Positions 48,286 through 64,000 of a stretch of 64,000 nucleotides of DNA are shown here, piece after piece (position 1 is the first letter of the stretch; every line of letters starts with the position of its first letter). Location of the stretch: NCBI RefSeq assembly GCF_004785795.1, contig NZ_SRRO01000001.1:3410001-3474000 (forward strand), read 5' to 3'. The DNA comes from Nocardioides eburneiflavus. Its GTDB lineage: Bacteria; Actinomycetota; Actinomycetes; Propionibacteriales; Nocardioidaceae. The notes beneath the pieces were generated by a model. The model saw only the letters and a program-made list of their open reading frames with translations. It made no database searches and had not been told where the DNA came from. A program made the translations under genes and the position numbers.

Positions 48286-49487
48286 GCGGCGTCCTCGTTC
48301 TCGAGCACCACGGCGAGGCCCTGGCCGACGCCGATGCAGATCGCAGCGACCCCCCAGCGGTGCCCGTCGGCGCGCATGGCGGCGGCGAGCGTGCCGAGGA
48401 CGCGACCGCCGGACGCTCCCAGTGGGTGGCCGAGCGCGATCGCGCCGCCGCGGGTGTTGACGACCTCCGGGCCGGCGAGGCCCTGCCGGAGCCAGGCGTC
48501 GACGCAGACGAGGGACTGCACGGCGAAGGCCTCGTTGAGCTCGACGACCCCGACGTCGGACCAGCCGATGCCGGCTCGGGCGAGGGCCTTGCCGGCCGCC
48601 TCGACGGGCGCGAAGCCGAAGCGGTGCGGCTCGACGGCGTGGGTGCCGCGCCCGGCGATGCGGGCGATCGGGTCGCTGCCGATGCGGTCGGCCGCCGCGG
48701 CGGAGCCGAGGAGGACGGCGGAGGCGCCGTCGCTGAGAGGCGAGGCGTTGCCGGCGGTGATCGTGCCGTCGGGCCGGAACGACGGCTTGAGCGCGGACAG
48801 CGTCTCGGGGGAGGCGTCCGGGCGGATGCCCTCGTCGCGGGCGAGGTCCACGCCCTCGACGGGCACGACGAGGTCGTCGTAGAAGCCCGACTCCCACGCC
48901 TCGTGCGCGAGTCGGTGGGAGCGCGCCGCGAAGGCGTCCTGGCGCTCGCGGGGGACGTCGTGGATGTCCTGGAGCTGCTCGTTGGACTCACCCAGCGACA
49001 CGGTCCACTCCTCGGGCATGCGCGGGTTGACCAGCCGCCAGCCCAGCGTCGTCGAGACCAGCTCGGTGTTGGCCGCGGGGAACGCGCGCTCGGGCTTGGG
49101 CAGCACCCAGGGGGCGCGGGTCATCGACTCGACGCCACCGGTGAGGACGATGTCGGCGTCGCCGGTCTCGATGGTGCGCGAGCCGATCATCGCGGCGTCC
49201 AGGGACGATCCGCAGAGGCGGTTGACCGAGGTGCCGGGCACCGAGACCGGGAGGCCGGCGAGCAGGGCGGCCATGCGGGCGACGTTGCGGTTGTCCTCGC
49301 CCGCGCCGTTGGCGTTGCCGAGCACGACCTCGTCGACCTCGGCCGGGTCGAGCCCGGTGCGCGCGAGGGCCGCCCGGAGCACGCCGGCGGCGAGGTCGTC
49401 GGGACGGGTCTTCGCCAGCGCCCCACCGAAGCGGCCGAACGGCGTGCGGACCGTCGCGTAGAGGTGGGCCTGCGGGGTGCTGCTCAT
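48282..49487 (-). CDS. pcaF: 3-oxoadipyl-CoA thiolase
   Basis: A 401-residue thiolase that cleaves 3-oxoadipyl-CoA to succinyl-CoA and acetyl-CoA, the last step of the beta-ketoadipate pathway. The acylated Cys is Cys92 in SVNRLCGSSLDA. The C-terminal motifs GGAIALGHPLGASG and CIGVGQG supply the catalytic His and second Cys. VELNEAFAVQ is also typical. Sequence alone cannot exclude a general acetyl-CoA acetyltransferase, but its overlap with pcaI and pcaL settles the role. Confidence 0.93.
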   Translation of the reverse strand: MSSTPQAHLYATVRTPFGRFGGALAKTRPDDLAAGVLRAALARTGLDPAEVDEVVLGNANGAGEDNRNVARMAALLAGLPVSVPGTSVNRLCGSSLDAAMIGSRTIETGDADIVLTGGVESMTRAPWVLPKPERAFPAANTELVSTTLGWRLVNPRMPEEWTVSLGESNEQLQDIHDVPRERQDAFAARSHRLAHEAWESGFYDDLVVPVEGVDLARDEGIRPDASPETLSALKPSFRPDGTITAGNASPLSDGASAVLLGSAAAADRIGSDPIARIAGRGTHAVEPHRFGFAPVEAAGKALARAGIGWSDVGVVELNEAFAVQSLVCVDAWLRQGLAGPEVVNTRGGAIALGHPLGASGGRVLGTLAAAMRADGHRWGVAAICIGVGQGLAVVLENEDAA

Positions 49488-50689
49488 GAGGGAGTGTCCT
49501 TCGGGTCGTGCTCGAGGTCGTCGAGGGTGGTCTGCGCGATGCGGAAGGCGGTGTTGGCGTCGGGCACACCGCAGTAGATCGCGGTCTGCAGGATCAGCTC
49601 CTTGATCTCGTCGTCGGTCAGTCCGTTGGTGCGGGCCGCGCGGAGGTGCATCGCGAGCTCCTCGTGGTGCGCGCGGGCGATGAGCGCGGTGAGGGTGATC
49701 ATGGAGCGGCTGCGGCGGTCGAGACCGGGACGGGTCCAGATGCCACCCCAGGCGTAGTCGGTGATGAGCTCCTGGAACTCGCGGGTCAGGTCGGTCGCGG
49801 ATGCGGTGGCCCGGTCGACGTGGGCGTCGCCCAGCACCTCGCGACGGACCTTCATGCCCGCCTCGACGCGTCCGGCGACCGTGTCCGGTGGGCCTGCGAG
49901 GCCGGCCACCTCCCGGATCGCCGCCGCGGTCTCGGCGGGTGCCTCGACGGGCGCCTGGTGCGCCACCCGGTCGAGCACGAACAGCCGGCCGTCCGACACC
50001 CCGTGGGCGACCTCGGCCATGCCGGCGACCGGCGCGGCGACGTCGTACGCCCCGGCGACCGCGACGACCGGTGCGGTGATCTCGCCGAGCCGGTCGCGCA
50101 CGTCGAAGGTGGCGAGCGCCCCGCACACCGAGGCGTAGCCGAAGCGGTCCGCCTCCTGGAGCGCGCGGAGGAGCCCGGTCACGAGCTCGGGCTGCTCCTC
50201 GATGAACCCGGGGCGGAACCAGCGTCGAGCCGATCCCTCCACCATGACGGGTGTGCCGGAGCGGCGGACGAGGTCGGCGCGCTCGCGCCACATCGCCTCG
50301 TCCCCCAGCCGGGCACCGGAGCACACGACCGCGGCAGCGCGGACGCGCTCGGGCGCGTCGAGCAGCAGCTGGAGCCCGACCGCACCGCCCACGGAGTCGC
50401 CTGCGTGGACGAACGACCCGCCGGCCTCCCCCCGCGCGGCGAGGACCCCGTCGACGAAGGCCAGCACCCCCGCGGCGAGGTCGGTCATGGTGGGGTCCTC
50501 GGTCGGGACGGAGCGGTTCACGCCGTGACCGGGCAGGTCCCAGGCGACGACGTGGAAGTCGTCGCCCAGGAGCGCCGCGACGGGGGACCACAGCGCGGTG
50601 GCCGACGTGCCGAGGGAGGGGCCGCAGACCAGCAGCGGCAGGTCGGGCGATCCGGCCAGCTCGACGCCGGCGAGGTGCGGGGTGCTCAT
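49484..50689 (-). CDS. pcaL: Fused 3-oxoadipate enol-lactonase / 4-carboxymuconolactone decarboxylase
   Basis: A 401-residue fusion of PcaD and PcaC, common in actinobacteria. Residues 1-260 are an alpha/beta hydrolase with nucleophile Ser99 in HAGDSVGGAVG and a late His in VLDRVAHQAPVEAP. Residues about 275-400 are the carboxymuconolactone decarboxylase domain (FQELITDYAWGGIWTRPGL, RSMITLTALIARAHHEELAMH in parts). The fusion performs decarboxylation then lactone hydrolysis to 3-oxoadipate. ATG 50689 overlaps the pcaB stop and its own stop overlaps pcaF. Confidence 0.95.
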   Translation of the reverse strand: MSTPHLAGVELAGSPDLPLLVCGPSLGTSATALWSPVAALLGDDFHVVAWDLPGHGVNRSVPTEDPTMTDLAAGVLAFVDGVLAARGEAGGSFVHAGDSVGGAVGLQLLLDAPERVRAAAVVCSGARLGDEAMWRERADLVRRSGTPVMVEGSARRWFRPGFIEEQPELVTGLLRALQEADRFGYASVCGALATFDVRDRLGEITAPVVAVAGAYDVAAPVAGMAEVAHGVSDGRLFVLDRVAHQAPVEAPAETAAAIREVAGLAGPPDTVAGRVEAGMKVRREVLGDAHVDRATASATDLTREFQELITDYAWGGIWTRPGLDRRSRSMITLTALIARAHHEELAMHLRAARTNGLTDDEIKELILQTAIYCGVPDANTAFRIAQTTLDDLEHDPKDTPS

Positions 50690-51933
50690 GGGTGTCGTCC
50701 TCCGGATGCGGCGCGGGCCAGCAGCAGGTCGATCAGCGCGTCGGTGCTGCCGAGGTAGTGCGTGGGGTCGAAGTCGTCCGTCGCAGCGCCGTCGACGAGG
50801 CCGGTCAGGCTGCGCTGCTCGGCGAGCAGCCCTGATCCTGCCGCCTGCACCAGCCTGGCCATGCGACCGGTGTCCACGTGCAGGCCCGCGAGGAGCTCGG
50901 CGGTCTGGGAGGTCGCGGTCAGGGTGTGGCGACCGAGCCGGGCCAGTGGCGACCACTCGGTGTGCCAGGCGCCGTCCGGTCGCTCGTCGACCGCGGTGGC
51001 CGCGGCGAGGTGGAGCTGGGCGGCCAGACCGGGGGTCGTGAGGGCGGCGCGCCGGACCAGCACGGCCAGGACGGGGTTGGCCTTCTGGGGCATGGTCGAG
51101 GACCCGCCGCGGCCTTCAACGGCGGGCTCGGCGAGCTCGGCGATCTCGGGGCGGGCGAGCACCAGCACGTCGGCGGCGATCCGGCCGCAGGCGTCGGTGG
51201 CGCGGACGAGCGAGTCCGCGACCCGGGTCAGCGGAGCGCGGTTGGTGTGCCACGGCGGGGCGTGGGGGAGGGCGAGCCGGTCGGCGAGGTCCGCCGCCAG
51301 GGCCACCGCGTCGCCCCCGCCCACGGCGAGTCGCAGCAGCTCGGCAGACGCGGCCAGGGTGCCGGCAGCGCCGCCCACCTGCGCGGGAAGGCGGTCCCGC
51401 GCGTCGACGAGGTCGTCCCGCGCGTCGAGGACGCCGTGCAACCACTGGGCCGCCTTGAGCCCGAAGGTGATCGGCACCGCGTGCTGGGTCAGGGTGCGGC
51501 CGGCCATCGGGTCCGAACGGTGTCGCTCGGCCAGGGCGGCCAGGGCGGCCACCTGCTCGTCGAGCCGCGTCAGGACGGCGTCCACGGCGTCACGCAGGGC
51601 GAGCACGAGCGCGGTGTCGAGCACGTCCTGGCTGGTGAGGCCCCGATGCAGCCAACGAGCGGCCTCGGGGTGGGGGCCGGCCAGCCGCTCACGGACGTCC
51701 GCGAGGAGCGGGATCACGACGTTGCCCCCTGCCTCGGAGGCCACCGCGAGAGCCTGGAGGTCGAGCCGGGCGGCCAGGGGCTCCACGTCCACCTGGGCGG
51801 CCGAGGGGGCGACACCGGCGGCCACCAGGGCCGCGAGCCAGGCGCTCTCGACGCGGAGCGCTGCCCGGACGACGGCCGCGTCCGTGAGGTGGTCGCCGGC
51901 GCGGTGGTCGCCCGGCCACAGCAGGTCGGCCAT
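50686..51933 (-). CDS. pcaB: 3-carboxy-cis,cis-muconate cycloisomerase
   Basis: A 415-residue member of the fumarase/aspartase superfamily that lactonises 3-carboxy-cis,cis-muconate. The superfamily signature GSSTMPQKANP (about residue 275) is intact and GRTLTQHAVPITFG supports the PcaB assignment over adenylosuccinate lyase. The ATG overlaps the pcaG stop by one base. Middle of the pca operon. Confidence 0.94.
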   Translation of the reverse strand: MADLLWPGDHRAGDHLTDAAVVRAALRVESAWLAALVAAGVAPSAAQVDVEPLAARLDLQALAVASEAGGNVVIPLLADVRERLAGPHPEAARWLHRGLTSQDVLDTALVLALRDAVDAVLTRLDEQVAALAALAERHRSDPMAGRTLTQHAVPITFGLKAAQWLHGVLDARDDLVDARDRLPAQVGGAAGTLAASAELLRLAVGGGDAVALAADLADRLALPHAPPWHTNRAPLTRVADSLVRATDACGRIAADVLVLARPEIAELAEPAVEGRGGSSTMPQKANPVLAVLVRRAALTTPGLAAQLHLAAATAVDERPDGAWHTEWSPLARLGRHTLTATSQTAELLAGLHVDTGRMARLVQAAGSGLLAEQRSLTGLVDGAATDDFDPTHYLGSTDALIDLLLARAASGGRHP

Positions 51934-52502
51934 CAGGCCTCGCCGAAGTCGAGGAAGACGGTCTCGTCCGTGCCCTGCAGCCGGATGTCGAAGACGTAAC
52001 CATCGGCGTCCTCGCCGGCGACGAGGGTGTGCCGACGGTCCTCGGGCACCGAGGTCAGCACCGGGTCACCGGCGGCCACGGCGTCCTCGAGGGACAGGTA
52101 GGCGCGGGTGACCAGGCGGTGCAGGAGACCGCGGGCGAAGACGGTCACCGCGAAGAAGGGCGTCTGCACTCCCGCCGTCGCGCCCGGGCGGACGGTGGTG
52201 AAGGAGTAGTGGCCGGTGTCGTCCACGGGCGTGCGGCCGAAGCCGGTGAAGGTCCAGCAGTCGCGGGCCCGGGACCCCTGCACCTGGGCGACCCGGCCGT
52301 GCTCGTCGGCCTGCCACAGCTCGATCAGGGCGTCGGGCACCGGCTCTCCCGCCCCGTCGTACACGGTGCCGTGCAGCCGGATCGCGGCCGGGTGGCTGCG
52401 TGGGACGAGGTCGGCTCCGCCGTCGAAGGGGAGCGCGTAGCCGAAGAAGGGGCCGACGGTCTGGCCGGGCGTGGGCGGCAGCCCGGTCGAGTCCGTGCTC
52501 AT
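51933..52502 (-). CDS. pcaG: Protocatechuate 3,4-dioxygenase alpha subunit
   Basis: A 189-residue alpha subunit of the intradiol dioxygenase. It has the family start TPGQTVGPFFGYALP, the beta-sandwich block VPDALIELWQADEHGR and FTTVRPGA. It lacks the iron-ligand Tyr/His set, as alpha subunits do; the beta subunit PcaH supplies the iron. Its start overlaps the pcaH stop by four bases. Confidence 0.95.
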   Translation of the reverse strand: MSTDSTGLPPTPGQTVGPFFGYALPFDGGADLVPRSHPAAIRLHGTVYDGAGEPVPDALIELWQADEHGRVAQVQGSRARDCWTFTGFGRTPVDDTGHYSFTTVRPGATAGVQTPFFAVTVFARGLLHRLVTRAYLSLEDAVAAGDPVLTSVPEDRRHTLVAGEDADGYVFDIRLQGTDETVFLDFGEA

Positions 52503-53305
52503 GCGGTCTCCTCCTCCATCGGGGTCCGGCGGCTGCCGGTCAGCACGATGTCCCACGTGTACCCGGTGGCCCACTCGTGCTGGGTCACGTCGTGGTCGTA
52601 GGTCGCCACCAGCCGCGCACGGGCGGCGGGGTCGACGATCGCCTGGTAGATCGGGTCGAGGGCGAACAGCGGGTCGCCCGGGAAGTACATCTGGGTGACC
52701 AGCCGCTGGGTGAAGTCGGTCCCGAAGAGGGAGAAGTGGATGTGCGCGGGACGCCACGCGTTGCGGTGGTTCCTCCACGGGTACGGACCGGGCTTGATGG
52801 TGGTGAAGCGGTAGCGGCCCTCGTCGTCGGTGAGCATGCGGCCGACGCCGGTGAAGTGCGGGTCGATCGGGGCGGGGTGCTGGTCCCGCTTGTGGATGTA
52901 GCGCCCGGCCGAGTTGGCCTGCCAGATCTCGACGAGCTGCCGTCGGACCGGGCGGCCCTCGCCGTCGAGCACGCGACCGGTGACGACCATCCGCTCGCCC
53001 ACGGGCTCGCCACCGTCCTGGATCGTGAGGTCGGACTCGAGGCGGCCGACGTCGCGGTGGCCGAAGACGGGAGCGAACAGCTCGACCCCCTCGGGGTCCG
53101 CGTGGTGCAGGTCCTTGGTGGGGTGGCGGAGCAGGCTGCTGCGGTACGGGGCGTAGTCGAGGCGCGGCTGGGTCTCGGCGCGGCCGCCCTGGCGGAGCGA
53201 GGCGTCGTACGCGGTGCTGATCGCCGCCATCTCGGCGTCGATCGCCGACTGGCTCGCCGACGCCGAGTCGGGGCCCGACGACAGGGGCTCGGAGGTCTGG
53301 GTCAC
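52499..53305 (-). CDS. pcaH: Protocatechuate 3,4-dioxygenase beta subunit
   Basis: A 268-residue iron-bearing subunit that opens the protocatechuate ring between the hydroxyls. The non-haem Fe(III) ligands are visible: Tyr136 (ANSAGRYIHKRDQH), Tyr175 (KPGPYPWRNH), His188 and His190 (WRPAHIHFS). GTG 53305 is chosen because TACGGT lies seven bases upstream, indicating a leaderless mRNA; a longer open frame to 53581 would cross the operator and the divergent regulator. First gene of pcaHGBLFIJ. Confidence 0.95.
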   Translation of the reverse strand: MTQTSEPLSSGPDSASASQSAIDAEMAAISTAYDASLRQGGRAETQPRLDYAPYRSSLLRHPTKDLHHADPEGVELFAPVFGHRDVGRLESDLTIQDGGEPVGERMVVTGRVLDGEGRPVRRQLVEIWQANSAGRYIHKRDQHPAPIDPHFTGVGRMLTDDEGRYRFTTIKPGPYPWRNHRNAWRPAHIHFSLFGTDFTQRLVTQMYFPGDPLFALDPIYQAIVDPAARARLVATYDHDVTQHEWATGYTWDIVLTGSRRTPMEEETA

Positions 53306-53350: not shown

Positions 53351-53365
53351 TTCCACTGGACGAAA
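53351..53365. promoter_or_regulatory. IclR-type operator, copy 1 (pcaH/pcaR)
   Basis: On the minus strand TTTCGTCCAGTGGAA, matching TTCCGTCCAACGGAA (copy 4) at 12 of 15 positions. It is the least perfect copy. It lies between pcaH and the divergent IclR gene and could serve both. Confidence 0.55.
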
Positions 53366-53375
53366 GGATGCCGGC

Positions 53376-54158
53376 ATGGCAGGCAACTCCGCGAGCGCCG
53401 GGCGGTCGGTCACCAGCCGTGCCCTGGCGGTGCTGGGAGCCTTCGACGCGCGGCACCGGAGGCTCACGCTGACGGAGATCGCCGGGCGCGCCGGACTGCC
53501 GGTCGCGACGGCGCACCGGCTGGTGGGCGAGCTGGTGGGCTGGGGCGCTCTCGCCCGCACCCCGTCGGGTGAGTACGTCATCGGCCGGCGACTGTGGGAC
53601 GTCGGGCTGCTCGCGCCCGTCCACAGCGGGCTCCGTGAGCTCGCCTCGCCCTACCTCCACGACCTCTACGGAGCGACCCTCGCGACGGTCCACCTGGCGG
53701 TGCGCGACGGGCTCCAGGTGCTCTACGTCGACCGGCTCTCCGGGCATGCCTCCGTCCCGGTGGTGAGCACCATCGGGTCGCGCCTGCCCCTGCACGCCAC
53801 CGGGGTCGGCAAGGTGCTGCTGGCCCACGCGCCACCCGAGGTCCAGGAGGCGGTGATGGGCTCGCTCACGCGGATCACGCCGTACACCATCAGCCAGCCC
53901 GGCCGGCTGCGACGCCAGCTGGAGGCCGTCCTCGAGGACGACCACGCGACGACCGTCGAGGAGATGACGCTCGGCGCCTGCTCGGTGGCGGTGCCGATCC
54001 GCGCGGGGACCCAGGTGGTGGCCGCGCTGGGCGTGGTGGTGCCGACCCTGCAGCCACGTGAGCGCGACCGCCTGGTGAGCGCCATGCAGGTGGCGGCGCG
54101 CGGGGTGGGCCGCCACCTGCCGTCCGTCTCGGACGGCGACCGAGTCGACTTCCGCTGA
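53376..54158 (+). CDS. pcaR: IclR-family regulator, probably of protocatechuate/4-hydroxybenzoate catabolism
   Basis: A 260-residue regulator. Residues about 10-75 form the winged helix-turn-helix (LTLTEIAGRAGLPVATAHRLV). The effector domain follows with YVDRLSG, SRLPLHATGVGKVLLA and a C-terminal ACSVAVPI motif typical of IclR ligand pockets. ATG 53376 has GAAAGGA nine bases upstream; a closer ATG at 53368 is out of frame. It is divergent from pcaH, and its own stop codon lies inside the pobA operator. Sequence does not show whether it or the IclR protein at 57411 binds the shared palindromes. Confidence 0.85.
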   Translation: MAGNSASAGRSVTSRALAVLGAFDARHRRLTLTEIAGRAGLPVATAHRLVGELVGWGALARTPSGEYVIGRRLWDVGLLAPVHSGLRELASPYLHDLYGATLATVHLAVRDGLQVLYVDRLSGHASVPVVSTIGSRLPLHATGVGKVLLAHAPPEVQEAVMGSLTRITPYTISQPGRLRRQLEAVLEDDHATTVEEMTLGACSVAVPIRAGTQVVAALGVVVPTLQPRERDRLVSAMQVAARGVGRHLPSVSDGDRVDFR

Positions 54159-54164
54159 GCGGAA
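54150..54164. promoter_or_regulatory. IclR-type operator, copy 2 (pobA)
   Basis: TTCCGCTGAGCGGAA, a perfect 7+1+7 palindrome. It overlaps the pcaR stop codon and is centred at 54157, 53 bp before ATG 54210. Confidence 0.6.
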
Positions 54165-54209: not shown

Positions 54210-55403
54210 ATGGCCACCACCCCCGTCCCTGTCCGCACCCAGGTCGCGATCGTCGGTGCCGGTCCGGCCGCGCTGATGCTGTCCCACCTGCTCGCCCGCG
54301 CCGGCATCGACTCCGTCGCGATCGACCTGCGCACCCGCGAGGAGATCGAGCAGACGCACCGCGCCGGGATCCTCGAGCAGGACTCCGTGGACCTCCTCGT
54401 CGACTCCGGGGTGTCCGACCGCGTGCTCCGCGACGGCTACCGGCACGACGGCATCGAGCTCGCCTTCGGCGGTGGATCGCACCGCATCGACTTCCGCGGG
54501 CTGGTCGGGGCGTCGACCCAGCTCTACCCGCAGACCGATGTCTTCATCGACCTCGCCGACGCCCGCGCCCGCGACGGAGGGGACGTGCGGTTCGGCGTCA
54601 CGGACGTCGAGGTGGGCGGGCTCACCGACCGCCCGGTCGTGCGCTTCACGGCCAGTGACGGGCTGGCCCACGAGGTCCGCGCCGACTTCCTCGTCGGGGC
54701 CGACGGGTCGCGCAGCCTGTGCCGCCGCGCGGTGCCGGAGGCCGAGCGCCTCCAGTACTTCCGGGAGTACCCGTTCGCCTGGTTCGGCATCCTCGCCGAG
54801 GCGCCCCCGAGCGCCCCCGAGCTGATCTACAACCACTCTCCGCACGGGTTCGCGCTCATCAGCCAGCGCACCGAGACCCTCCAGCGGATGTACTTCCAGT
54901 GCGATCCCGCCGAGGACGCCACCACGTGGTCGGACGACCGCATCTGGGAGAGGCTCCAGGCCGCGGTGGGCGCCAACGGCCACACGCTCGCGGAGGGCGC
55001 GATCACCTCGCGCACGGTGCTGCCCTTCCGCAGCTTCGTCCAGGAGCCGATGCACCACGGCCGGATGGTGCTCGCGGGCGACGCCGCCCACACGGTGCCG
55101 CCCACGGGCGCCAAGGGCCTCAACCTCGCGCTGGCCGACGTACGGGTCCTCGCCGAGGAGCTGGAGCGGGCGGTCGACAAGGACGACCCGGCTCCGCTGG
55201 CGTCCTACAGCGAGAGGGCGCTGGCCCGGGTCTGGAAGGCCCAGCACTTCTCCTACTGGATGACCACGATGCTGCACACGCTGCCCGACGCGACCCCGTT
55301 CGACGTACGCCGCCAGGAGGGCGAGCTGGCCGCCGTGACCGGGTCGGTGGCGGGGTCGACCTACCTCGCCGAGGCCTACACGGGCTGGCCCGGGGCGCGC
55401 TGA
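54210..55403 (+). CDS. pobA: 4-hydroxybenzoate 3-monooxygenase
   Basis: A 397-residue FAD monooxygenase that turns 4-hydroxybenzoate into protocatechuate with NAD(P)H and O2. Motifs: GXGXXG in VAIVGAGPAALMLSHLLARAG, the DG motif GADGSRSLCRRA and the GD motif MVLAGDAAHTVPPTGAKGLNLALADV (in parts). FREYPFAWFGILAEAPPS and HSPHGFALISQR are specific to PobA. In-frame ATGs at 54198, 54201 and 54210 are possible; I chose 54210 because a -10 box at seven bases and an operator at -53 copy the pcaH layout. The downstream HD-domain gene starts two bases after its stop. Confidence 0.94.
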   Translation: MATTPVPVRTQVAIVGAGPAALMLSHLLARAGIDSVAIDLRTREEIEQTHRAGILEQDSVDLLVDSGVSDRVLRDGYRHDGIELAFGGGSHRIDFRGLVGASTQLYPQTDVFIDLADARARDGGDVRFGVTDVEVGGLTDRPVVRFTASDGLAHEVRADFLVGADGSRSLCRRAVPEAERLQYFREYPFAWFGILAEAPPSAPELIYNHSPHGFALISQRTETLQRMYFQCDPAEDATTWSDDRIWERLQAAVGANGHTLAEGAITSRTVLPFRSFVQEPMHHGRMVLAGDAAHTVPPTGAKGLNLALADVRVLAEELERAVDKDDPAPLASYSERALARVWKAQHFSYWMTTMLHTLPDATPFDVRRQEGELAAVTGSVAGSTYLAEAYTGWPGAR

Positions 55404-55405
55404 GC

Positions 55406-56095
55406 ATGGCGCTGCCGCCGCAGGAACCGTCCGCGAACCACCTCGGCACGGACGTCACGCCCTTCCTGCCCGACCCGACCACCGTGACCGGCACTGCCGG
55501 GTTCCGGCCCGCGGACGCAGAGGTGTGGCGGCTCGCCGTCGAGCACCTCCACGTGCGCAGCAACGACGCCCACACGGCGTACTCGTACGGACTGGCGGCG
55601 GCGCTGTGCGACCTGCACCCCGACGCCGACCGCGACGTCGTGCTGCCCGCGATCATCCTCCACGACACCGGCTGGTCGCGGGTCGCCGCGGACGAGGTGC
55701 TCGAGGCGATCCGGCCCGGCGGGGGTCGCGAGGACCTGGTGATCCGTCACGAGAAGGAGGGCGCCGCGATCGCGAGCGACGTGCTGGGCCGACTCGGTCG
55801 CGACCCGGCCCGCACGGCTGAGATCGTGGGGATCATCGACGGCCACGACTCGCGCCTCACCTCGCTCTCCCTCAACGACGCCCTGGTCAAGGACGCCGAC
55901 AAGCTCTGGCGGCTCACGCCCCACGGAGTGGAGACGGTGATGGACTGGTTCGGCCTGACCCGACAGCAGGCGCACGTGCTGATCGGCAGCCGGGTGCACG
56001 ACCACCTCTTCACCGACGCGGCACGCACCATGGCGCGGGCCCTGGCCGCGGTCGCCCTCATCGACAGCGCGCCCCAGCGGACAGCGCTCGGCTGA
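55406..56095 (+). CDS. HD-domain phosphohydrolase
   Basis: A 229-residue cytosolic HD-superfamily protein. The metal pair is His86-Asp87 in IILHDTGWS, with an upstream His in HVRSNDAHTAYSYG and downstream IIDGHDSR and DALVKDADKLWRL, giving the H-HD-D set for a divalent metal. HD proteins hydrolyse phosphate esters. It begins two bases after pobA, so both are co-translated. Inference: it may remove the phosphate from the phosphorylated aromatic acid made by the P450 operon, giving 4-hydroxybenzoate for PobA, the step done by CreD in the C. glutamicum 4-cresol pathway. Confidence 0.85.
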   Translation: MALPPQEPSANHLGTDVTPFLPDPTTVTGTAGFRPADAEVWRLAVEHLHVRSNDAHTAYSYGLAAALCDLHPDADRDVVLPAIILHDTGWSRVAADEVLEAIRPGGGREDLVIRHEKEGAAIASDVLGRLGRDPARTAEIVGIIDGHDSRLTSLSLNDALVKDADKLWRLTPHGVETVMDWFGLTRQQAHVLIGSRVHDHLFTDAARTMARALAAVALIDSAPQRTALG

Positions 56096-56112: not shown

Positions 56113-56127
56113 TTCCGTCCGACGGAA
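56113..56127. promoter_or_regulatory. IclR-type operator, copy 3 (MBL-fold gene)
   Basis: TTCCGTCCGACGGAA, a perfect 7+1+7 palindrome in the gap before the MBL-fold gene. A GAGACT box at 56160-56165 would place the transcription start about 53 bp from its centre. Confidence 0.65.
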
Positions 56128-56199: not shown

Positions 56200-57390
56200 A
56201 TGTGCGGATCCGTCAACGACCTGGCCCGGGCCACGCTGAGCAGGCGGGGCCTCCTCGCCGGCGCCGGCACGGCAGCCGTCGGAGCCTCGCTCTCCGGCGC
56301 CGCGGGCCCCGCGGGTGCAGCCCCGGCCACGGCCCCGCGGACTGCACGCGGGCACCGTACCCAGCTGGTGCTGCTCGGCACCTCCGGAGGGCCGGCGTAC
56401 TGGCCGGGGTCCACCCGCGCCGGGATCGCCTCGGCGGTGGTCGTGGGTGACCGGTTCTACCTCGTCGACTGCGGCTCCGGCGTGGTGCGGCAGGCGAGGT
56501 CGGCCGGGCTGGGCAACGCCTCCCACGACACCGACGGCCCGCTGGACGCCCTGCGCGGGGTGTTCCTGACCCACCTCCACTCCGACCACGTGGTCGACCT
56601 CAACAACGTGCTCACCGAGGGCCTGTTCAACGGGCTCCACCTCGTGGACCGGCAGGTCCCGATCTGGGGGCCGGGCAACCGTGGGGGCCTTCCGCCGCTC
56701 TTCGGGCCGCCTCCCGCACCGCCGGTCGTGGCGCCGGACAGCCCGACGCCGGGCACGCGCGAGATGGTGGACCTGATGGTCAGGACGTTCGCCACCGACT
56801 ACAACGACCGGGCCCTCGACAACCGCAAGCCCGTCCCGAGCCAGCTCTTCGCCGGCCACGACGTCCCGATCCCGGCCCACCTGCTTGCCGACCCCAACGG
56901 GACGCCCTGCCCTCGCATGTCGCCCGTGACCTTCTTCGAGGACGACCTCGTGCGCGTCTCCGCCACGCTCGTGCAGCACGCACCCGTCTTCCCGGCGCTG
57001 GCGTTCCGGTTCGAGACCGAGGACGGCAGCATCGTCTTCTCCGGTGACACGGGGCCGACCGAGAACCTCGTCGAGCTCGCCCGGGACGCCGACGTGCTGG
57101 TGCACGAGGTGATCGACCGCGAGTGGGTCGAGATGTTGCTGCCCGAGCCGCGCACCCCTGCCCAGGAGGGCCTCGTCAACCACCTCCTCCACGCCCACAC
57201 GGAGGTCACCGACGTCGGAGCGATCGCGGAGGCCGCGGGTGCGCGTACGCTCGTGCTGTCCCACCTCGTGCCGGGCAGCTGGCCCGAGCACAAGTGGCGC
57301 CGCGCCCACACCGGCTACTCCGGAGAGCTCGTCGTCGGTCGAGACCTCGACCGCATCGGAGTCGGCCGTCGGACACGACGCCGGCGGTGA
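56200..57390 (+). CDS. Exported metallo-beta-lactamase-fold hydrolase (Tat substrate)
   Basis: A 396-residue protein. The N-terminus has a twin-arginine signal (TLSRRGLLAGAGTAAVGA) followed by an Ala/Pro-rich cleavage region, so it should be folded before export. The MBL metal site is LTHLHSDH with His125, His127, Asp129 and His130; further ligands are in LVQHAPVFPALAF, FSGDTGPTENL and LVLSHLVPG. The overall pattern resembles RNase Z/arylsulfatase-type MBL hydrolases. ATG 56200 has GAGGAG seven bases upstream. It sits under the shared operator, so it is probably used in aromatic uptake, for instance hydrolysing an ester outside the cell, but no substrate is shown. Confidence 0.85.
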   Translation: MCGSVNDLARATLSRRGLLAGAGTAAVGASLSGAAGPAGAAPATAPRTARGHRTQLVLLGTSGGPAYWPGSTRAGIASAVVVGDRFYLVDCGSGVVRQARSAGLGNASHDTDGPLDALRGVFLTHLHSDHVVDLNNVLTEGLFNGLHLVDRQVPIWGPGNRGGLPPLFGPPPAPPVVAPDSPTPGTREMVDLMVRTFATDYNDRALDNRKPVPSQLFAGHDVPIPAHLLADPNGTPCPRMSPVTFFEDDLVRVSATLVQHAPVFPALAFRFETEDGSIVFSGDTGPTENLVELARDADVLVHEVIDREWVEMLLPEPRTPAQEGLVNHLLHAHTEVTDVGAIAEAAGARTLVLSHLVPGSWPEHKWRRAHTGYSGELVVGRDLDRIGVGRRTRRRR

Positions 57391-57410: not shown

Positions 57411-58196
57411 GTGCGCGGTGACGGACGAACGGTCACCTCGAAGGCCCTCGCCCTGCTCGGTGCCTTCGAGCAGGGTCCCTCCGCGCTCTCGCTGAGCGAC
57501 CTCGCCGCCCATGCCGACCTCCCGCTGCCCACCGCGCACCGGCTGGTCGGGGAGCTCGTCGAGTGGGGCGCCCTCGAGCGCGACTCGCAGGGGCGCTACA
57601 CCGTCGGCCTCCGGCTCTGGGAGGTGGCCCAGAACGCCGGCCGCCACCTGCGCGACACCGCACGGCCGCACCTGCAGGACCTCTTCTCGCTGACGAACGA
57701 GACGGCGCACCTCGCGATCCGCGAGGGGGACGAGGCGCTCTACATCGACCGCATCTACGGGTCGACCAGGGTGCCGCGCGCCTCCAGGGTCGGAGGGCGC
57801 CTGCCGCTGCACGCGACCGCGGTCGGCAAGGTGCTGCTCGCCTTCGAGGAGGACTGGGTCCGCGAGGCCTACCTCACCCACCGGCTGGAGCCGGCCACCA
57901 GGCACACGCACGTCAACCCCGGACGGCTGGCCGCCGAGCTGCGCAAGGTGCGCGACGAGGGCTACGCGACCACGCAGGAGGAGGTCCGCGAGGGGTCGTG
58001 CTCGATCGCCGTGCCGGTCCGCCTCGACCCGCACCCGGCCGCCATCGGGCTCGTCATGCTCTCGACACAGGGCACCGTCATGACGCGCCACCTGCCCACC
58101 CTGCGCGGGGTGGCGCACCGCATCGAGGTGGCTGCCGCGCGCCCGCAGCCGAGCGTCCTGCGGCTCCCGCGCCGCATCCCGCGCCGCCAGGGCTGA
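57411..58196 (+). CDS. Second IclR-family regulator
   Basis: A 261-residue IclR protein with a winged helix-turn-helix (LSLSDLAAHADLPLPTAHRLV) and an effector domain (YIDRIYGSTRVPRAS, GRLPLHATAVGKVLLA, SCSIAVPV). It resembles the regulator at 53376, including the recognition helix LP(L/V)(P/A)TAHRLVGELV, so the two may read similar operators. GTG 57411 has GCAGGAGG just upstream. It follows the MBL gene by 20 bp, probably as one operon, and precedes the P450 operon. It is the likely regulator of that operon. Confidence 0.9.
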   Translation: MRGDGRTVTSKALALLGAFEQGPSALSLSDLAAHADLPLPTAHRLVGELVEWGALERDSQGRYTVGLRLWEVAQNAGRHLRDTARPHLQDLFSLTNETAHLAIREGDEALYIDRIYGSTRVPRASRVGGRLPLHATAVGKVLLAFEEDWVREAYLTHRLEPATRHTHVNPGRLAAELRKVRDEGYATTQEEVREGSCSIAVPVRLDPHPAAIGLVMLSTQGTVMTRHLPTLRGVAHRIEVAAARPQPSVLRLPRRIPRRQG

Positions 58197-58212: not shown

Positions 58213-58227
58213 TTCCGTCCAACGGAA
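58213..58227. promoter_or_regulatory. IclR-type operator, copy 4 (P450 operon)
   Basis: TTCCGTCCAACGGAA, differing from copy 3 at one central base. It is 17 bp after the second IclR stop. A CACGAT box at 58259-58264 would place the transcription start about 52 bp from its centre. Confidence 0.65.
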
Positions 58228-58308: not shown

Positions 58309-59607
58309 ATGACGTCGACCCCGACCTCGACCGGAGCGGCCCGCGGCTGCCCGGTCCACCACGGCTACGAGCCGTTCGCGATGGACGACCCGTTCCCGTC
58401 GTACGCCGCCCTCCGCGAGGAAGAGCCGGTGATGTTCGACGAGCGGATCGGACACTGGGTGGTGAGCCGCTACGACGACGTCAAGGCGGTCTTCGAGGAC
58501 TGGGAGACCTTCTCCTCCGAGAACGCGCAGGCACCCGTCCGCGAGCGGGGGGCGCAGGCCAGGCAGATCATGGAGGAGGGCGGGTTCACCGCCTACTCCG
58601 GTCTCTCCGCGCGAGTCCCCCCGGACCACACGCGGATCCGCAAGGTCGCCGCGAAGGCGTTCACGCCGCGCCGCTTCAAGGTCCTCGAGCCGGAGATCCG
58701 GGCCAACGTGGTGCGGCTCCTCGAGCAGATGCTCACGCGCCCCGACCGTCGCGGCGACCTCGTGCGCGACCTGGCCTACGACGTCCCGACGATCACGATC
58801 CTCACCCTGATCGGCGCGGACCTGGGCATGGTCGGCACCTACAAGACCTGGTCGGACTCCCGAGCAGCGATGACCTGGGGCGACCTCAGCGACGACGAGC
58901 AGGTGCCGCACGCACACAACCTCGTCGACTACTGGGCCGAGTGCCGCCGCCTGGTCGACGAGGCGCACGAGACCGAGCGCGACAGCCTGGTCGGCGACAT
59001 GGTCCGCATGCAGGCCGACGGCGACCCCATCACCGACCACGAGATCGCCTCCATCTGCTACTCCCTGCTCTTCGCCGGCCACGAGACGACCACGACGCTG
59101 ATCTCCAACGCGCTGCGCGTCCTGCTCACCCACCCCGAGCAGTGGCAGCAGGTGGTGGCCGACCCCACCCGCATCCCGGCAGCCGTCGACGAGGTGCTGC
59201 GCTACAGCGGCTCGATCGTCGGCTGGCGCCGCCGGGCGCTGCGCGACGCTGAGATCGGGGGAGTGTCGGTCCCGAAGGGCGCCGACATCCTCCTGCTCAT
59301 GGGATCGGCCAACCGGGACGAGACCAGGTTCGAGGACGGCGAGTCCTTCGACATCGCCCGCCCCAACGCCCGCGAGCACCTCTCGTTCGGCTTCGGCATC
59401 CACTACTGCCTCGGCAACATGCTCGCCAAGCTGCAGGCGAAGGTCGCCCTGGAGGAGGTCGCCCGCCTCGCGCCCGGCCTCACCCTCGCCGACGACGCCG
59501 ACATCCACTTCGGCGACAACCTGTCCTTCCGGGCCCCGATCAGAGTGCCCGTCACCTGGCCCGCCGCCCTCCACGGCGAGTCCCCGACCGAGGAGGTCTC
59601 CCGATGA
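58309..59607 (+). CDS. Cytochrome P450 (CreJ-like)
   Basis: A 432-residue soluble bacterial P450. The I-helix oxygen motif is AGHETT (256-261), the ExxR pair is Glu295/Arg298 and the haem-binding Cys is Cys367 in FGFGIHYCLGN. ATG 58309 has AGGAGG seven bases upstream. It heads an operon with a phosphotransferase pair, an SDR, a [2Fe-2S] ferredoxin and a ferredoxin reductase, so it is a class I P450 with dedicated redox partners. In C. glutamicum, CreJ with CreE/CreF oxidises the methyl group of phosphorylated 4-cresol; this gene set is the same. Substrate is inferred from context, not from residues. Confidence 0.92.
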   Translation: MTSTPTSTGAARGCPVHHGYEPFAMDDPFPSYAALREEEPVMFDERIGHWVVSRYDDVKAVFEDWETFSSENAQAPVRERGAQARQIMEEGGFTAYSGLSARVPPDHTRIRKVAAKAFTPRRFKVLEPEIRANVVRLLEQMLTRPDRRGDLVRDLAYDVPTITILTLIGADLGMVGTYKTWSDSRAAMTWGDLSDDEQVPHAHNLVDYWAECRRLVDEAHETERDSLVGDMVRMQADGDPITDHEIASICYSLLFAGHETTTTLISNALRVLLTHPEQWQQVVADPTRIPAAVDEVLRYSGSIVGWRRRALRDAEIGGVSVPKGADILLLMGSANRDETRFEDGESFDIARPNAREHLSFGFGIHYCLGNMLAKLQAKVALEEVARLAPGLTLADDADIHFGDNLSFRAPIRVPVTWPAALHGESPTEEVSR

Positions 59608-60680
59608 GCGACTACGTCGTCTTCTTCGACAGCGGTCACGACCCCGCCCTCGAGCTCCTGGGCGGCAAGTGCGCTTCCCTCGTCTCGATGACCACGGCCG
59701 GCATGCCGGTGCCGCCCGGTTTCGCGGTGACCACGGCCGCCTTCGACCACTTCGTCGACGGCAGCGGGCTGCGCGCGGAGATCCGCGACCGCCTCGCCGA
59801 GATCGACCCCGACGACGTCGCGTCGGTCGACCGGGCCTCCGAGCAGATCCGGGACGCCATCGAGTCGCGTGAGGTGCCCGAGGACATGCACGGCGTCCTG
59901 CGCACGGCGTACGACGAGCTGATGACGCGGTTCGCCGGCGAGGTCCCGGTCGCCGTCCGCTCCTCCGCGACCGCCGAGGACCTGCCGGACGCCAGCTTCG
60001 CGGGCCAGCAGGACACCTACCTCTGGCTGACCGGATACCCCGAGGTGAGCCACCACGTACGCCGGTGCTGGGCGTCGCTCTACACCAGCCGGGCGATCAC
60101 CTACCGGTTGCGCAACAGCATCCCCGAGGACGACCTGTCGATGGCGGTCGCGGTGCAGAAGATGGTCAACGCCCGCGTCTCGGGTGTCGCGATGACCATG
60201 GACCCGTCCAACGGCGACCGCTCCAAGATCGTGGTGGACGCGTCCTGGGGCGTCGGCGAGATGGTCGTCTCCGGCCAGGTGACGCCCGACAACCTCATGC
60301 TGGACAAGGTGATGCTCTCGGTCGTGCGTGAGCACATCGGCGACAAGCACGCCGAGCTCGTCCCCGACGCGGCCAGCGGCTCGCTCCTGGAGCGGGAGGT
60401 CGAGCCCGAGCGCCAAGCCGTCCGGTGCCTCACCGACACCGAGCTGCACGCCGTCGCGAGCATGGCAAAGCGCGCCGAGCGGCACTACGGCTGCCCCCAG
60501 GACATCGAGTGGGCGCTGGACGCCGACCTGCCCGACGGCGACAACCTCCTGCTGCTCCAGTCCCGGCCGGAGACCGTCCACTCGGCCCCCGGCGCCGGTC
60601 CCACCCCGGCACCGCCCTCGACCTCGGGACCGACCGGATTCTCCCTGTCCGGTCTCACCACGTCCCTCATCGGCCGCTGA
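59604..60680 (+). CDS. PEP-synthase-like ATP-binding subunit of an aryl phosphotransferase (CreH/CreI-like)
   Basis: A 358-residue protein that covers only the N-terminal ATP-grasp domain of PEP synthase/pyruvate phosphate dikinase. Blocks: GGKCASLVSMTTAGMPVPPGFAVTT (in parts), VAVRSSATAEDLPDASFAGQQDTYL, and the C-terminal DIEWALDAD and LLLLQSRPETV. A Pro/Ser-rich tail ends it. Alone it lacks the phosphohistidine domain, which the next gene supplies, as in phenylphosphate synthase and in CreHI. ATG 59604 overlaps the P450 stop (ATGA). Role inferred: bind ATP and phosphorylate the partner's His. Confidence 0.88.
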   Translation: MSDYVVFFDSGHDPALELLGGKCASLVSMTTAGMPVPPGFAVTTAAFDHFVDGSGLRAEIRDRLAEIDPDDVASVDRASEQIRDAIESREVPEDMHGVLRTAYDELMTRFAGEVPVAVRSSATAEDLPDASFAGQQDTYLWLTGYPEVSHHVRRCWASLYTSRAITYRLRNSIPEDDLSMAVAVQKMVNARVSGVAMTMDPSNGDRSKIVVDASWGVGEMVVSGQVTPDNLMLDKVMLSVVREHIGDKHAELVPDAASGSLLEREVEPERQAVRCLTDTELHAVASMAKRAERHYGCPQDIEWALDADLPDGDNLLLLQSRPETVHSAPGAGPTPAPPSTSGPTGFSLSGLTTSLIGR

Positions 60681-60711
60681 GCCCCAGCGCCGCACACCCC
60701 AAGGAACCCGC

Positions 60712-62532
60712 ATGACGATCGAACAGACCATGAAGTCCTTCCCGAAGCCGTCACAGATCGAGGTGCCGGCCGGCGCCGAGGGCTGGGAGGACCTCTACCC
60801 CTACAACCTGGTCTTCGACAACGCCCCCGGCGGTGACGAGAAGTTCTGGTTCTGCGACAGCCAGCACTGGCCGACCGTCTTCAAGCCCTTCGAGACCATC
60901 GGCGGCGAGTTCGCGGTGAAGTGCCTGGGGCAGTACAACACCCGCCACCTGCTGATCCCGCCGGCCAACGGCATCGAGTTCAAGATCCACCTCGGCTACC
61001 TCTACATGAGCCCCGTCGGCGTGCCGGAGGAGGAGATCGCTGCCCGTGTGCCGGAGTTCGAGCGCCGCGCCGGGCACTACTTCCAGAACTGGGACAGCCT
61101 CCTCGAGGCCTGGCACTCCAAGGTCCGCGCCACCATCGACGAGATGGAGGACCTCACCTTCGAGGCCCTCCCCGACGCGGTGCCCTTCGACGACATCGTC
61201 TCCGGCAAGGCGATGGACGGTTCGCAGGTGCTGATGGAGAACTACGACCGCCTGATCGCTCTGCTCTACCGCAACTGGCAGTACCACTTCGAGTTCCTCA
61301 ACCTCGGCTACCTCGCCTACCTCGACTTCTTCGGCTTCTGCAAGGACGTGTTCCCCGGCATCCCGGACCAGGCGATCGCCAAGATGGTGCAGGGCGTCGA
61401 CATGGAGCTGTTCCGGCCCGACGACGAGCTCAAGAAGCTCGCGGTGCAGGCCGTCGAGCTGGGGATCCAGTCCGCCTTCGACGACACCGACGACGTCGAG
61501 GGGACCCTGCGAGCGGTGCGCGACGCGGGGGGTGAGGAGTGGCTGGTCGCCTACGAGGCCGCCCAGGACCCGTGGTTCAACTTCACCGTCGGCAACGGCT
61601 TCTACGGCCACGACAAGTACTGGCTCGAGCACCAGGACATCCCGCTGGGCTACATCAAGGACTACGTCCGGCGCGTCGACGACGGCCAGGACATCATGCG
61701 TCCCGTCGAGCACCTCCTGGCGGAGAAGGAGCGCATCATCGCGGAGTACCGCGAGCTGGTCTCGCCCGAGCTGCAGGCACAGTTCGACGCCAAGCGCGGT
61801 CTCGCCGCGACGGCGTACCCCTACGTGGAGAACCACAACTTCTACATCGAGCACTGGGCCATGGGCGTCTTCTGGCGCAAGGTGCGCGAGCTCGCCGGCG
61901 TGTTCGTCGAGGCCGGCTTCTGGGCCGACCCCGCGGACATGCTCTACCTCAACCGCAACGAGGTCCGGGACGCGATCTTCGACCTGGTCACGGGATGGGC
62001 GGTCGGGGCGGAGTCGACCGGCCCGCACTACTGGCCCGCCGAGATCGAGCGCCGCCGCGTCATCATCGACGCGCTCTCCACCCGTCGCCCGCAGCCGGCA
62101 CTCAACACGCCACCCGCGCAGATCACCGAGCCCTTCACGATGATGCTCTACGGCATCACCACCGAGCAGGTGCAGCAGTGGCTGGCAGGGGACGAGGGCT
62201 CCGAGGACGGCGCCATCACCGGCATGGCTGCCTCACCGGGCGTCGTCGAGGGCCTGGCCCGCGTGATCACGTCGGCCGACCAGCTCGGCGAGGTGCAGGA
62301 GGGCGAGATCCTCGTCGCCACCATCACCGCCCCGTCGTGGGGGCCGATCTTCGGCAAGATCCGGGCCACCGTCACCGACATCGGCGGCATGATGAGCCAC
62401 GCCGCCATCGTGTGCCGCGAGTACGGGCTCCCCGCCGTCACCGGCACGGGATCGGCCTCGACCACGATCGTGACCGGCCAGCGGATCCGCGTCGACGGCA
62501 ACGCCGGCCGGGTCGAGATCCTCCAGGACTGA
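60712..62532 (+). CDS. PEP-utilizing (swivelling His domain) subunit of an aryl phosphotransferase (CreH/CreI-like)
   Basis: A 606-residue protein. Residues about 510-606 are the PEP-mobilising swivel domain with predicted phosphohistidine His563 in GGMMSHAAIVCREYG. The large N-terminal part (about 1-480) is rich in aromatic residues (WFCDSQHWP, LYRNWQYHFEF, NFYIEHWAMG) and resembles the substrate-binding part of phenylphosphate synthase and rifampin phosphotransferase, so it probably holds the phenolic acceptor. It has no ATP-grasp domain. ATG 60712 follows AAGGAA. It would take phosphate from the ATP subunit and pass it to the phenol hydroxyl. Confidence 0.88.
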   Translation: MTIEQTMKSFPKPSQIEVPAGAEGWEDLYPYNLVFDNAPGGDEKFWFCDSQHWPTVFKPFETIGGEFAVKCLGQYNTRHLLIPPANGIEFKIHLGYLYMSPVGVPEEEIAARVPEFERRAGHYFQNWDSLLEAWHSKVRATIDEMEDLTFEALPDAVPFDDIVSGKAMDGSQVLMENYDRLIALLYRNWQYHFEFLNLGYLAYLDFFGFCKDVFPGIPDQAIAKMVQGVDMELFRPDDELKKLAVQAVELGIQSAFDDTDDVEGTLRAVRDAGGEEWLVAYEAAQDPWFNFTVGNGFYGHDKYWLEHQDIPLGYIKDYVRRVDDGQDIMRPVEHLLAEKERIIAEYRELVSPELQAQFDAKRGLAATAYPYVENHNFYIEHWAMGVFWRKVRELAGVFVEAGFWADPADMLYLNRNEVRDAIFDLVTGWAVGAESTGPHYWPAEIERRRVIIDALSTRRPQPALNTPPAQITEPFTMMLYGITTEQVQQWLAGDEGSEDGAITGMAASPGVVEGLARVITSADQLGEVQEGEILVATITAPSWGPIFGKIRATVTDIGGMMSHAAIVCREYGLPAVTGTGSASTTIVTGQRIRVDGNAGRVEILQD

Positions 62533-62534
62533 CG

Positions 62535-63299
62535 ATGACGGACTCGCACACCCACGACCCGGTCCGCACCGTCCTCGTGACGGGTGCGGGCGGGGGCCTG
62601 GGGCGGGCCTTCGCGCTCGGCTTCGCCTCCCGCGGCCACCGTGTCGCCGTGGCCGACATCGACGTCGACGGTGCCGAGGAGACGGCCCGCCTCGTCAAGG
62701 ACACCGGCGCCGAGGCCTGGTCGGGCCGCGTCGACGTCACCGACGAGGCGTCGACCCGCGAGCTGGCCGAGCAGGTGGCCGACTTCGGCGACGGGACCAT
62801 CGACGTGCTGGTCAACAAGGCCGCCGTCTACGGCACCGTCACCCGTTCGCCGCTCGAGGACATCGACCCGGCGGAGTGGGACCTCGTGATGGCCGTGAAC
62901 CTCAAGGGCCCCTGGCTCATGACGCGCGCGGTCAGCCCCTACCTCCCCGACGGCGGCCGGGTCGTCAACCTCTCCTCGGCCACGGTCTACTCGGGCTCGG
63001 AGCACTGGGCCCACTACGTCGCCTCCAAGGGCGGCGTCATCGCCCTCACGCGGGTGATGGCCAGGGAGCTCGGCCGTCGCGGCGTCACCGTCAACGCCAT
63101 CGCGCCGGGCTTCACCCTGACCGAGGCGAGCCGCGGCCTGCTCGAGGACGCCGAGTCCTACGGCGTCGACCGCGGATCGCTGCGCCGGGCCAGCCAGCCC
63201 GACGACATCGTCGGTGCCGCGCTCTACCTCGCCGGCCCCGACAGCGGCTTCGTGACCGGCCAGACCCTGGTCGTCGACGGCGGCCGCCAGTTCATCTGA
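62535..63299 (+). CDS. Short-chain dehydrogenase/reductase
   Basis: A 254-residue classical SDR. Cofactor loop TGAGGGLGRA, Asp in VAVADIDVDG (favouring NAD+), catalytic Ser in VVNLSSATV, Tyr161 and Lys165 in HYVASKGG, and the C-terminal GQTLVVDGGRQ. The usual NNAG/NNAA motif reads NKAA here (DVLVNKAAVYG), so the structural second Asn is a Lys. It begins three bases after the phosphotransferase gene. In the cre-like pathway an alcohol dehydrogenase oxidises the benzylic alcohol; this SDR is the candidate. Confidence 0.92.
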   Translation: MTDSHTHDPVRTVLVTGAGGGLGRAFALGFASRGHRVAVADIDVDGAEETARLVKDTGAEAWSGRVDVTDEASTRELAEQVADFGDGTIDVLVNKAAVYGTVTRSPLEDIDPAEWDLVMAVNLKGPWLMTRAVSPYLPDGGRVVNLSSATVYSGSEHWAHYVASKGGVIALTRVMARELGRRGVTVNAIAPGFTLTEASRGLLEDAESYGVDRGSLRRASQPDDIVGAALYLAGPDSGFVTGQTLVVDGGRQFI

Positions 63300-63326
63300 C
63301 CCACCCACACCAGCTGGAGGAACCAC

Positions 63327-63647
63327 ATGTCGACCGTCACCTACACCGACCACGCCGGCGAGTCCCGGGTCGTGGAGGCGACCGTGGGCGACTCGGTCAT
63401 GGAGACCGCGGTCCGCAACGGCGTGCCGGGCATCGTCGCCGAGTGCGGTGGCTCGCTGTCGTGCGCCACGTGCCACGTCTTCGTCGCCGAGGCCGACCTG
63501 GCCTCGCTCCCGCCCATGGACGAGATGGAGGACGAGATGCTCTGGGGCGCGGCCGAGGACCGGCGGGACAACTCCAGGCTGTCCTGCCAGCTCACCGTGA
63601 CCGAGGGCTCCGACCTGCACGTCACCACGCCGTCCACCCAGGTGTGA
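63327..63647 (+). CDS. [2Fe-2S] ferredoxin (adrenodoxin type)
   Basis: A 106-residue acidic electron carrier. The cluster ligands are Cys40, Cys46 and Cys49 (CGGSLSCATC) and Cys87 (LSCQL), the spacing of P450-linked ferredoxins such as putidaredoxin. It should pass electrons from the reductase to the P450 at 58309. Own ribosome site GGAGGA precedes the ATG. Confidence 0.96.
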   Translation: MSTVTYTDHAGESRVVEATVGDSVMETAVRNGVPGIVAECGGSLSCATCHVFVAEADLASLPPMDEMEDEMLWGAAEDRRDNSRLSCQLTVTEGSDLHVTTPSTQV

Positions 63648-63652
63648 CCGCC

Positions 63653-64000
63653 ATGACCGACGCGACGCCTGACGGCCTCCTCGTCATCGGCTCCTCCCAG
63701 GCCGGCGTCTCGCTCGCCACCTCGCTGCGCGCCCTGGGCTACGACGACCCGATCACCCTGCTCGGCGACGAGAACCACCGCCCCTACCAGCGCCCGGCGC
63801 TGTCCAAGGAGTGGCTCCAGGGCGAGATCACCAACGAGTCGCTCATGTTCCGCACCCAGGCCTACTGGGACGAGCACCGCATCGACGTCGTCAAGAACGA
63901 GCGCATCGTCCGCATCGACAAGGCCGCGGACGGATCGGGGACGGCGCACTCCCTGTCCGGGGCCACGTTCGCCTTCGACCGTCTCGCGCTGGCCGTGGGC
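63653..64000 (+). CDS. FAD-dependent ferredoxin reductase, 3' end cut by window
   Basis: The first 116 residues are visible. It opens with the FAD-binding motif LLVIGSSQAGVSLATSLRALG, followed by HRPYQRPALSKEWLQGE, a signature of putidaredoxin/rubredoxin reductases. It starts five bases after the ferredoxin stop, completing a class I P450 redox chain (NAD(P)H, reductase, ferredoxin, P450). The NAD domain and C-terminus lie beyond the window. Confidence 0.93.
   Translation, partial: MTDATPDGLLVIGSSQAGVSLATSLRALGYDDPITLLGDENHRPYQRPALSKEWLQGEITNESLMFRTQAYWDEHRIDVVKNERIVRIDKAADGSGTAHSLSGATFAFDRLALAVG

Follow-up and report, generated by a model that had tools for sequence, protein, structure and literature searches.

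Does the run of P450, kinase-like and redox genes at the end of a 64,000-nucleotide stretch of the Nocardioides eburneiflavus genome encode a pathway that phosphorylates a phenol before oxidizing it, and if so, for which substrate? This stretch, called the window hereafter, covers positions 3,410,001 to 3,474,000 of contig NZ_SRRO01000001.1; positions above 64000 extend the window numbering into the same genome. A preliminary description had likened the run to the 4-cresol (cre) genes of Corynebacterium glutamicum and had taken the gene order as new. Our comparisons of genes and proteins indicate that the locus is very probably a complete cre operon (creR and creJIHGFEDC) that serves 4-cresol, and perhaps further para-alkylphenols, and shares an island with pobA and the pca genes.

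The genes of the run are all on the forward strand. The first, creJ (58309..59607), codes for a CYP288-like cytochrome P450 of 432 residues with heme Cys367. It is followed by creI (59604..60680) for the ATP-grasp subunit of a phenol dikinase (358 residues; PPDK_N, 368 bits), creH (60712..62532) for its swivel (PEP-utilisers) subunit (606 residues; Pfam), creG (62535..63299) for a short-chain dehydrogenase/reductase (SDR; 254 residues; Pfam), creF (63327..63647) for a [2Fe-2S] ferredoxin (106 residues; Fer2; Cys 40, 46, 49 and 87) and creE (63653..64933, the window ending at 64000) for a ferredoxin reductase (Pfam). Coordinates and Pfam matches agree with the six proteins first described, and as every one of them scores above the Pfam curated cut-offs, chance is excluded. 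The predicted phospho-histidine had also been placed exactly, as residue 563 of CreH; it lies in the motif TDIGGMMSH. A serine precedes this catalytic histidine, as reported for CreH and PpsA (PMC12167813). An aldehyde dehydrogenase had been sought beyond 64000, and it is present as creC (65631-67133; Pfam), after an HD-domain hydrolase at the creD position (64942-65634); a PDB sequence search with CreD gave no match at E <= 0.1. Successive genes of the run overlap or are at most 31 bases apart. All nine reading frames of the run, in the window and downstream of it, are intact, and the catalytic residues looked for are all present.

The P450 is 72% identical over 403 aligned residues (685.5 bits) to PDB chains 5xjn/7ccf and 5gwe, which we take to be CreJ, and the next-best P450 in the PDB scores 260.7 bits. 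The crystallized chain has a 100% match in a genome of the Corynebacterium group. In C. glutamicum, 4-cresol catabolism is described as starting with phosphorylation (PMC7764795, PMC8796525, PMC9618137); CreJ is CYP288A2 (PMC9357085), CreE the reductase and CreF the ferredoxin (PMC9549646). According to PMC7764795, cg0637-cg0645 comprise creC (aldehyde dehydrogenase), creD (phosphohydrolase), creE, creF, creG (4-hydroxybenzyl alcohol dehydrogenase), creH, creI and creJ; by its position relative to that table, the SDR of the window is probably a 4-hydroxybenzyl alcohol dehydrogenase. The run creJ-I-H-G-F-E-D-C matches this list in the opposite direction, with all eight functions present. Three Corynebacterium genomes, whose CreJ proteins are 96, 91 and 87% identical to the crystallized chain, have the same order as the window. 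Identities between the operon proteins of the window and those three loci are 58-81% and even along the operon (CreI and CreC 64-65%, CreG 69-72%, CreD 60-62%), and the IclR protein reaches 51-53%.

The swivel subunit was placed in a FastTree phylogeny of 77 cre rows, window included, and 24 subunits of two-part dikinases from elsewhere in the phylum. The cre rows stand apart with a support of 100, and the CreH of the window lies on their side. The 24 other subunits came from 28 short loci (<5 kb), in which no cre-type P450 was found. The CreJ-type P450, the eight functions, the C. glutamicum order and the position of the swivel subunit in the cre clade thus bear out the proposed cre-like, phosphorylation-first set.

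A scan of public genomes with the window P450 retrieved 97 relatives, the best 80 of which were kept (the 80 cre loci). Gene order can be evaluated in the 70 loci with at least 8.5 kb after the P450 gene, the remaining 10 ending too early, and all eight genes occur in identical order in 70 of these 70. As the order is shared with C. glutamicum, the three Corynebacterium loci and every evaluable locus, it is not new, contrary to what had been claimed. The cre system is already known and its gene order is standard; the locus is an ordinary complete cre operon. Of the 77 loci with enough sequence, 70 have an IclR gene no more than 3 kb upstream of creJ. The family labels of the 80 loci are actinobacterial (four loci have no family label), and three loci are from Nocardioidaceae. 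CreJ occurs in two of 198 sampled genomes of the family of the window, its own genome included, and in 13 of 242 Corynebacterium genomes. The closest cre operons are those of Nocardioides guangzhouensis, Nocardia higoensis and Streptomyces (CreH 90-92%). This patchy spread, together with near-identity across families, suggests horizontal transfer of cre between families. Arthrobacter sp. C2 has two cre loci (L092 and L093) ~150 kb apart on one chromosome, and L092 carries a second dikinase pair (51 and 43%) ~7.6 kb upstream of its P450 gene.

The presence of pobA and a complete pca operon beside the run was confirmed by NCBIfam naming. The pca operon (46958..53230, reverse strand) comprises pcaH, pcaG, pcaB, a pcaDC fusion, pcaF, pcaI and pcaJ; pcaB (337.6 bits, cut-off 355.75) and pcaF (411.8, cut-off 597) fall below the strict cut-offs, the families being right. 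The pobA gene, for 4-hydroxybenzoate 3-monooxygenase (54210..55403, forward), passes the subfamily model NF006091 (506.6 bits, cut-off 351) and stays below the cut-off of the equivalog model (396.5 vs 538.7). A gene for a second HD-domain hydrolase, which we call HD1 (55406..56095, forward; HD domain by Pfam), directly follows pobA. The order pca, iclR, pobA, HD1, creR, cre is also found in Nocardia higoensis (L042) and Nocardioides terrigena (L055, the same as L149).

The steps catalysed can be proposed from the relatives of these proteins, the observations here being the genes, their relatedness, their conserved order and a recurrent palindrome. CreI would pass a phosphate of ATP to His563 of CreH, which would phosphorylate the phenol oxygen. 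CreJ, fed by CreE and CreF, would then oxidize the methyl group of the aryl phosphate, and CreD would remove the phosphate. CreG and CreC would oxidize the alcohol and the aldehyde to 4-hydroxybenzoate, which PobA would convert to protocatechuate and the pca enzymes to succinyl-CoA and acetyl-CoA.

The window contains two genes for IclR-family regulators, both on the forward strand. The creR candidate (57411..58196) has IclR Pfam domains and scores below the cut-off of the PcaR/PcaU/PobR family; the other gene, iclR (53376..54158), is assigned to that kind by NCBIfam. Over 219 residues, the two proteins share 49% identity, and both have TAHRLVGELV in their N-terminal DNA-binding regions, which fits a common operator. 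A candidate operator, the palindrome TTCCGTCCAACGGAA (58213..58227), lies in the creR-creJ gap. Its core TTCC-N7-GGAA is present in 56 of 78 segments upstream of creJ (77 loci and the window), as against a mean of 0.265 and a maximum of 2 in 200 dinucleotide shuffles. Three exact palindromes occur in the window where 0.18 are expected, a number reached in none of 100 shuffles. The other two are TTCCGCTGAGCGGAA before pobA, overlapping the end of iclR (54150..54164), and TTCCGTCCGACGGAA before a hydrolase gene described below (56113..56127). A further candidate with one mismatch, TTCCACTGGACGAAA, is found between pcaH and iclR (53351..53365). We ran a weight matrix built from 55 other sites over ~90 kb of window and downstream DNA. 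It ranked the sites at 54150 (24.9), 58213 (22.1), 53351 (19.5) and 56113 (17.8) first to fourth, the fifth place scoring only 8.7. Taken alone, the site at 56113 is weaker evidence because a score of 17.8 was also attained in one of the five single-base shuffles. A relaxed consensus, run over the 80 loci, gave 81 matches, of which 55 are before the P450 gene, 10 before HD1, 7 before pobA, 2 in the pcaH/iclR gap, 2 between an aldehyde dehydrogenase-like and an SDR-like gene and 5 unassigned. The IclR-family regulators probably bind the shared TTCC-N7-GGAA palindrome. In 2020, PMC7764795 described the cre inducer as unknown and mentioned that another IclR protein, Cg3388/IhtR, may play a part. 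The palindrome and the IclR genes provide a candidate control circuit.

Remnants of cre loci were seen in other genomes. In L162 (3067-10444), from a genome of the same family with 8% contamination, a pca operon directly adjoins the C-terminal part of a cre ferredoxin reductase together with creD and creC; either the cre locus is truncated or the assembly is at fault. Two loci are decayed: L163 (8.9-10.5 kb) retains a creR-like gene and creD alone, with the palindrome between them, and L161 (9.5-11.0 kb) retains HD1 with a broken creC-like gene.

Some observations weigh against a cre operon in one island with pobA and pca. The PDB search labels 5xjn, 5gwe and 7ccf, taken here as CreJ, only 'Cytochrome P450', and the palindrome is missing from 22 of the 78 segments upstream of creJ. 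At >45% identity and within the sequence stretches examined, pobA was found in 13 and pcaH in 6 of the 80 cre loci, so that the compact island is a minority form. That the same chemistry serves mainly 4-ethylphenol or another para- or meta-alkylphenol instead of 4-cresol is possible but unlikely. The system of C. glutamicum has been applied to various p- and m-alkylphenols (PMC9549646), and the P450 of the window differs from CreJ at 28% of positions. However, the degree of conservation relative to Corynebacterium is uniform over the operon, and an end at pobA and pca fits a one-carbon side chain that yields 4-hydroxybenzoate, whereas longer chains need extra steps. The decayed loci in relatives (L161, L162 and L163) raise the question of whether the operon is non-functional or unexpressed in this strain, which we consider improbable given its intact frames, catalytic residues and palindrome.

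The homologues were also compared with other pathways, as had been suggested. A different phenol-kinase pathway lying beside a P450 gene by chance, either Hpe for hydroxyacetophenones or phenylphosphate synthase/carboxylase, would use the same two-part dikinase family, HpeH, CreH and PpsA sharing ~45% (PMC12167813). Yet Pfam found no carboxylase, biotin or CoA-ligase domain among the nine proteins of the run, the swivel subunit clusters with cre loci, and HpeD is described in PMC9618137 as NagD-like and so is not an HD protein. Both readings were rejected on the missing carboxylase domain and the cre-clade swivel subunit, and we regard them as very improbable. Still harder to credit is a drug-modifying phosphotransferase or a natural-product P450 cluster. 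The domains are common to rifamycin phosphotransferase, but the kinase is split over two genes, which score 280.6 and 111.4 bits against a family cut-off of 999; the best PDB P450 other than the presumed CreJ chains reaches 261 bits, and the gene order is that of cre loci. With scores so far below the cut-off and a P450 nearest to the CreJ chain among solved structures, the antibiotic-phosphotransferase and natural-product P450 readings are disfavoured and were rejected. A cre operon remains the reading adopted here.

The HD1 protein is 41% identical over 146 residues to CreD, the HD protein of the operon. We counted both types in 84 loci (the 80 loci, the three Corynebacterium loci and L149, which repeats L055), and HD1-type matches were found in 45 and CreD-type matches in 77. 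Among the 80 cre loci, HD1-type proteins occur in 44, of which 43 at >45% identity, the match in L088 being weak (36%). A tree of 122 rows, L149 left out, separates the two types into clades with supports of 100 and 100. The HD1 residues H56, H86-D87, H115, H147-D148 and D163 and the residues equivalent to them are conserved in ≥98% of the rows of each type, and from the HD family we infer that they bind metal. Positions A101/E103, I102/G104, K162/R165 and K166/R169 discriminate between HD1 and CreD.

Among the 198 family genomes, HD1 matches of >300 bits are confined to the two genomes with CreJ; in a third genome, the sole match is of the CreD type, at 123 bits. Of 15 genomes from the genus to which Arthrobacter sp. 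C2 belongs, 10 have HD1 (>200 bits), and the 7 with CreJ are all among these 10. One of the three genomes with HD1 and no CreJ has HD1 adjoining a broken creC-like gene; in the other two, no additional cre gene was found within the 20 kb inspected, an argument against a strict link between HD1 and cre. None of the 13 Corynebacterium genomes with CreJ has an HD1-type protein, the best HD1 matches being of 105-127 bits and, in genome G614, CreD itself; HD1 is thus dispensable. In five loci of metagenome-assembled genomes (L114, L115, L117, L118 and L120), HD1 is part of the cre operon itself, flanked by creH and creG. Our guess, based on the position of HD1 behind pobA in the window, is that it acts on 4-carboxyphenyl phosphate.

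Between HD1 and creR, the gene at 56200..57390 (forward) codes for an arylsulfatase-like hydrolase of the metallo-β-lactamase (MBL) fold with a twin-arginine-like leader recognized by eye. Its best PDB match is 8gyg ('Arysulfatase', 89.6 bits), RNase Z and other MBL chains scoring at most 41 bits, and we hypothesize that it is an exported arylsulfatase. At E <= 1e-70, it has matches in two of 396 genomes of the phylum, one being its own; against such rarity, Arthrobacter sp. C2 alone has six homologues. The gene for the closest relative found (64%) belongs to one of that strain's two cre loci (L092/L164), where it lies downstream of creC with an amidohydrolase-like gene, recognized by eye, in between. 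The two proteins share an insertion missing from seven other homologues. No palindrome match was found in L164, an argument against a shared regulon at that locus. In one further locus, L060, a 45% homologue is encoded on the opposite strand. In L168-L170, L172 and L173, homologues without the shared insertion lie near LysR-type and MFS-transporter-like genes, judged by eye from sequence starts. The hydrolase possibly belongs to another system.

These neighbours raise the question of whether the whole island is a single IclR-controlled regulon leading from conjugated cresol to the citric acid cycle, a combination that we find doubtful. The exported arylsulfatase-like enzyme would free p-cresol outside the cell, for example from p-cresyl sulfate, and the Cre enzymes would oxidize the phosphate ester. 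CreD would act on the alcohol and the aldehyde and HD1 on 4-carboxyphenyl phosphate, delivering the substrate of PobA, and one palindrome would control four transcription units.

Downstream, aroQ (67126-67566; L009:11127-11567; forward; Pfam) codes for a type II dehydroquinase and overlaps the end of creC by 8 bases. It was considered as a member of the cre pathway and rejected: the other 80 cre loci yielded no aroQ, and it is the sole type II dehydroquinase match of the genome, which has no type I match. On these grounds, it is more likely a housekeeping gene, which may be tied here to cresol-induced transcription. Further on, at 68684-72395 (L009), we recognized by eye genes for an extradiol dioxygenase, a fumarylacetoacetase-like hydrolase and an MhpA-like flavin monooxygenase, preceded by a TetR-like gene on the opposite strand, which reads as a second aromatic pathway.

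What makes the locus interesting is the palindrome, HD1, the exported hydrolase and how rigid the operon is. In a literature search whose coverage left out most subscription journals, we recognized no report of the palindrome, or of HD1 or a sulfatase linked to cre. Judging from the best 80 of 97 relatives, the unusual phosphorylate-first route is a rigid eight-gene operon in many actinobacteria rather than a Corynebacterium speciality. 4-Cresol is a pollutant, a lignin product and a gut product, and the locus supplies further homologues of CreJ and CreHI with which alkylphenols might be oxidized selectively.

Compared with known systems, the locus most resembles the cre operon of C. glutamicum, with the same eight functions in the same order and an IclR gene adjoining creJ. 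Unlike in C. glutamicum, pobA, pca, HD1, the MBL hydrolase gene and aroQ adjoin the operon, and 28% of the 403 aligned P450 positions differ from CYP288A2. The HpeHI and PpsAB systems likewise have a two-part ATP-grasp/swivel dikinase with the catalytic histidine in T/SxxGGxxxH, as described in PMC12167813 and PMC9618137, but the step that follows is carboxylation there and would be P450 oxidation here. Rifamycin phosphotransferase also combines ATP-grasp and swivel domains; in contrast with the two genes of the window, it carries them on one chain.

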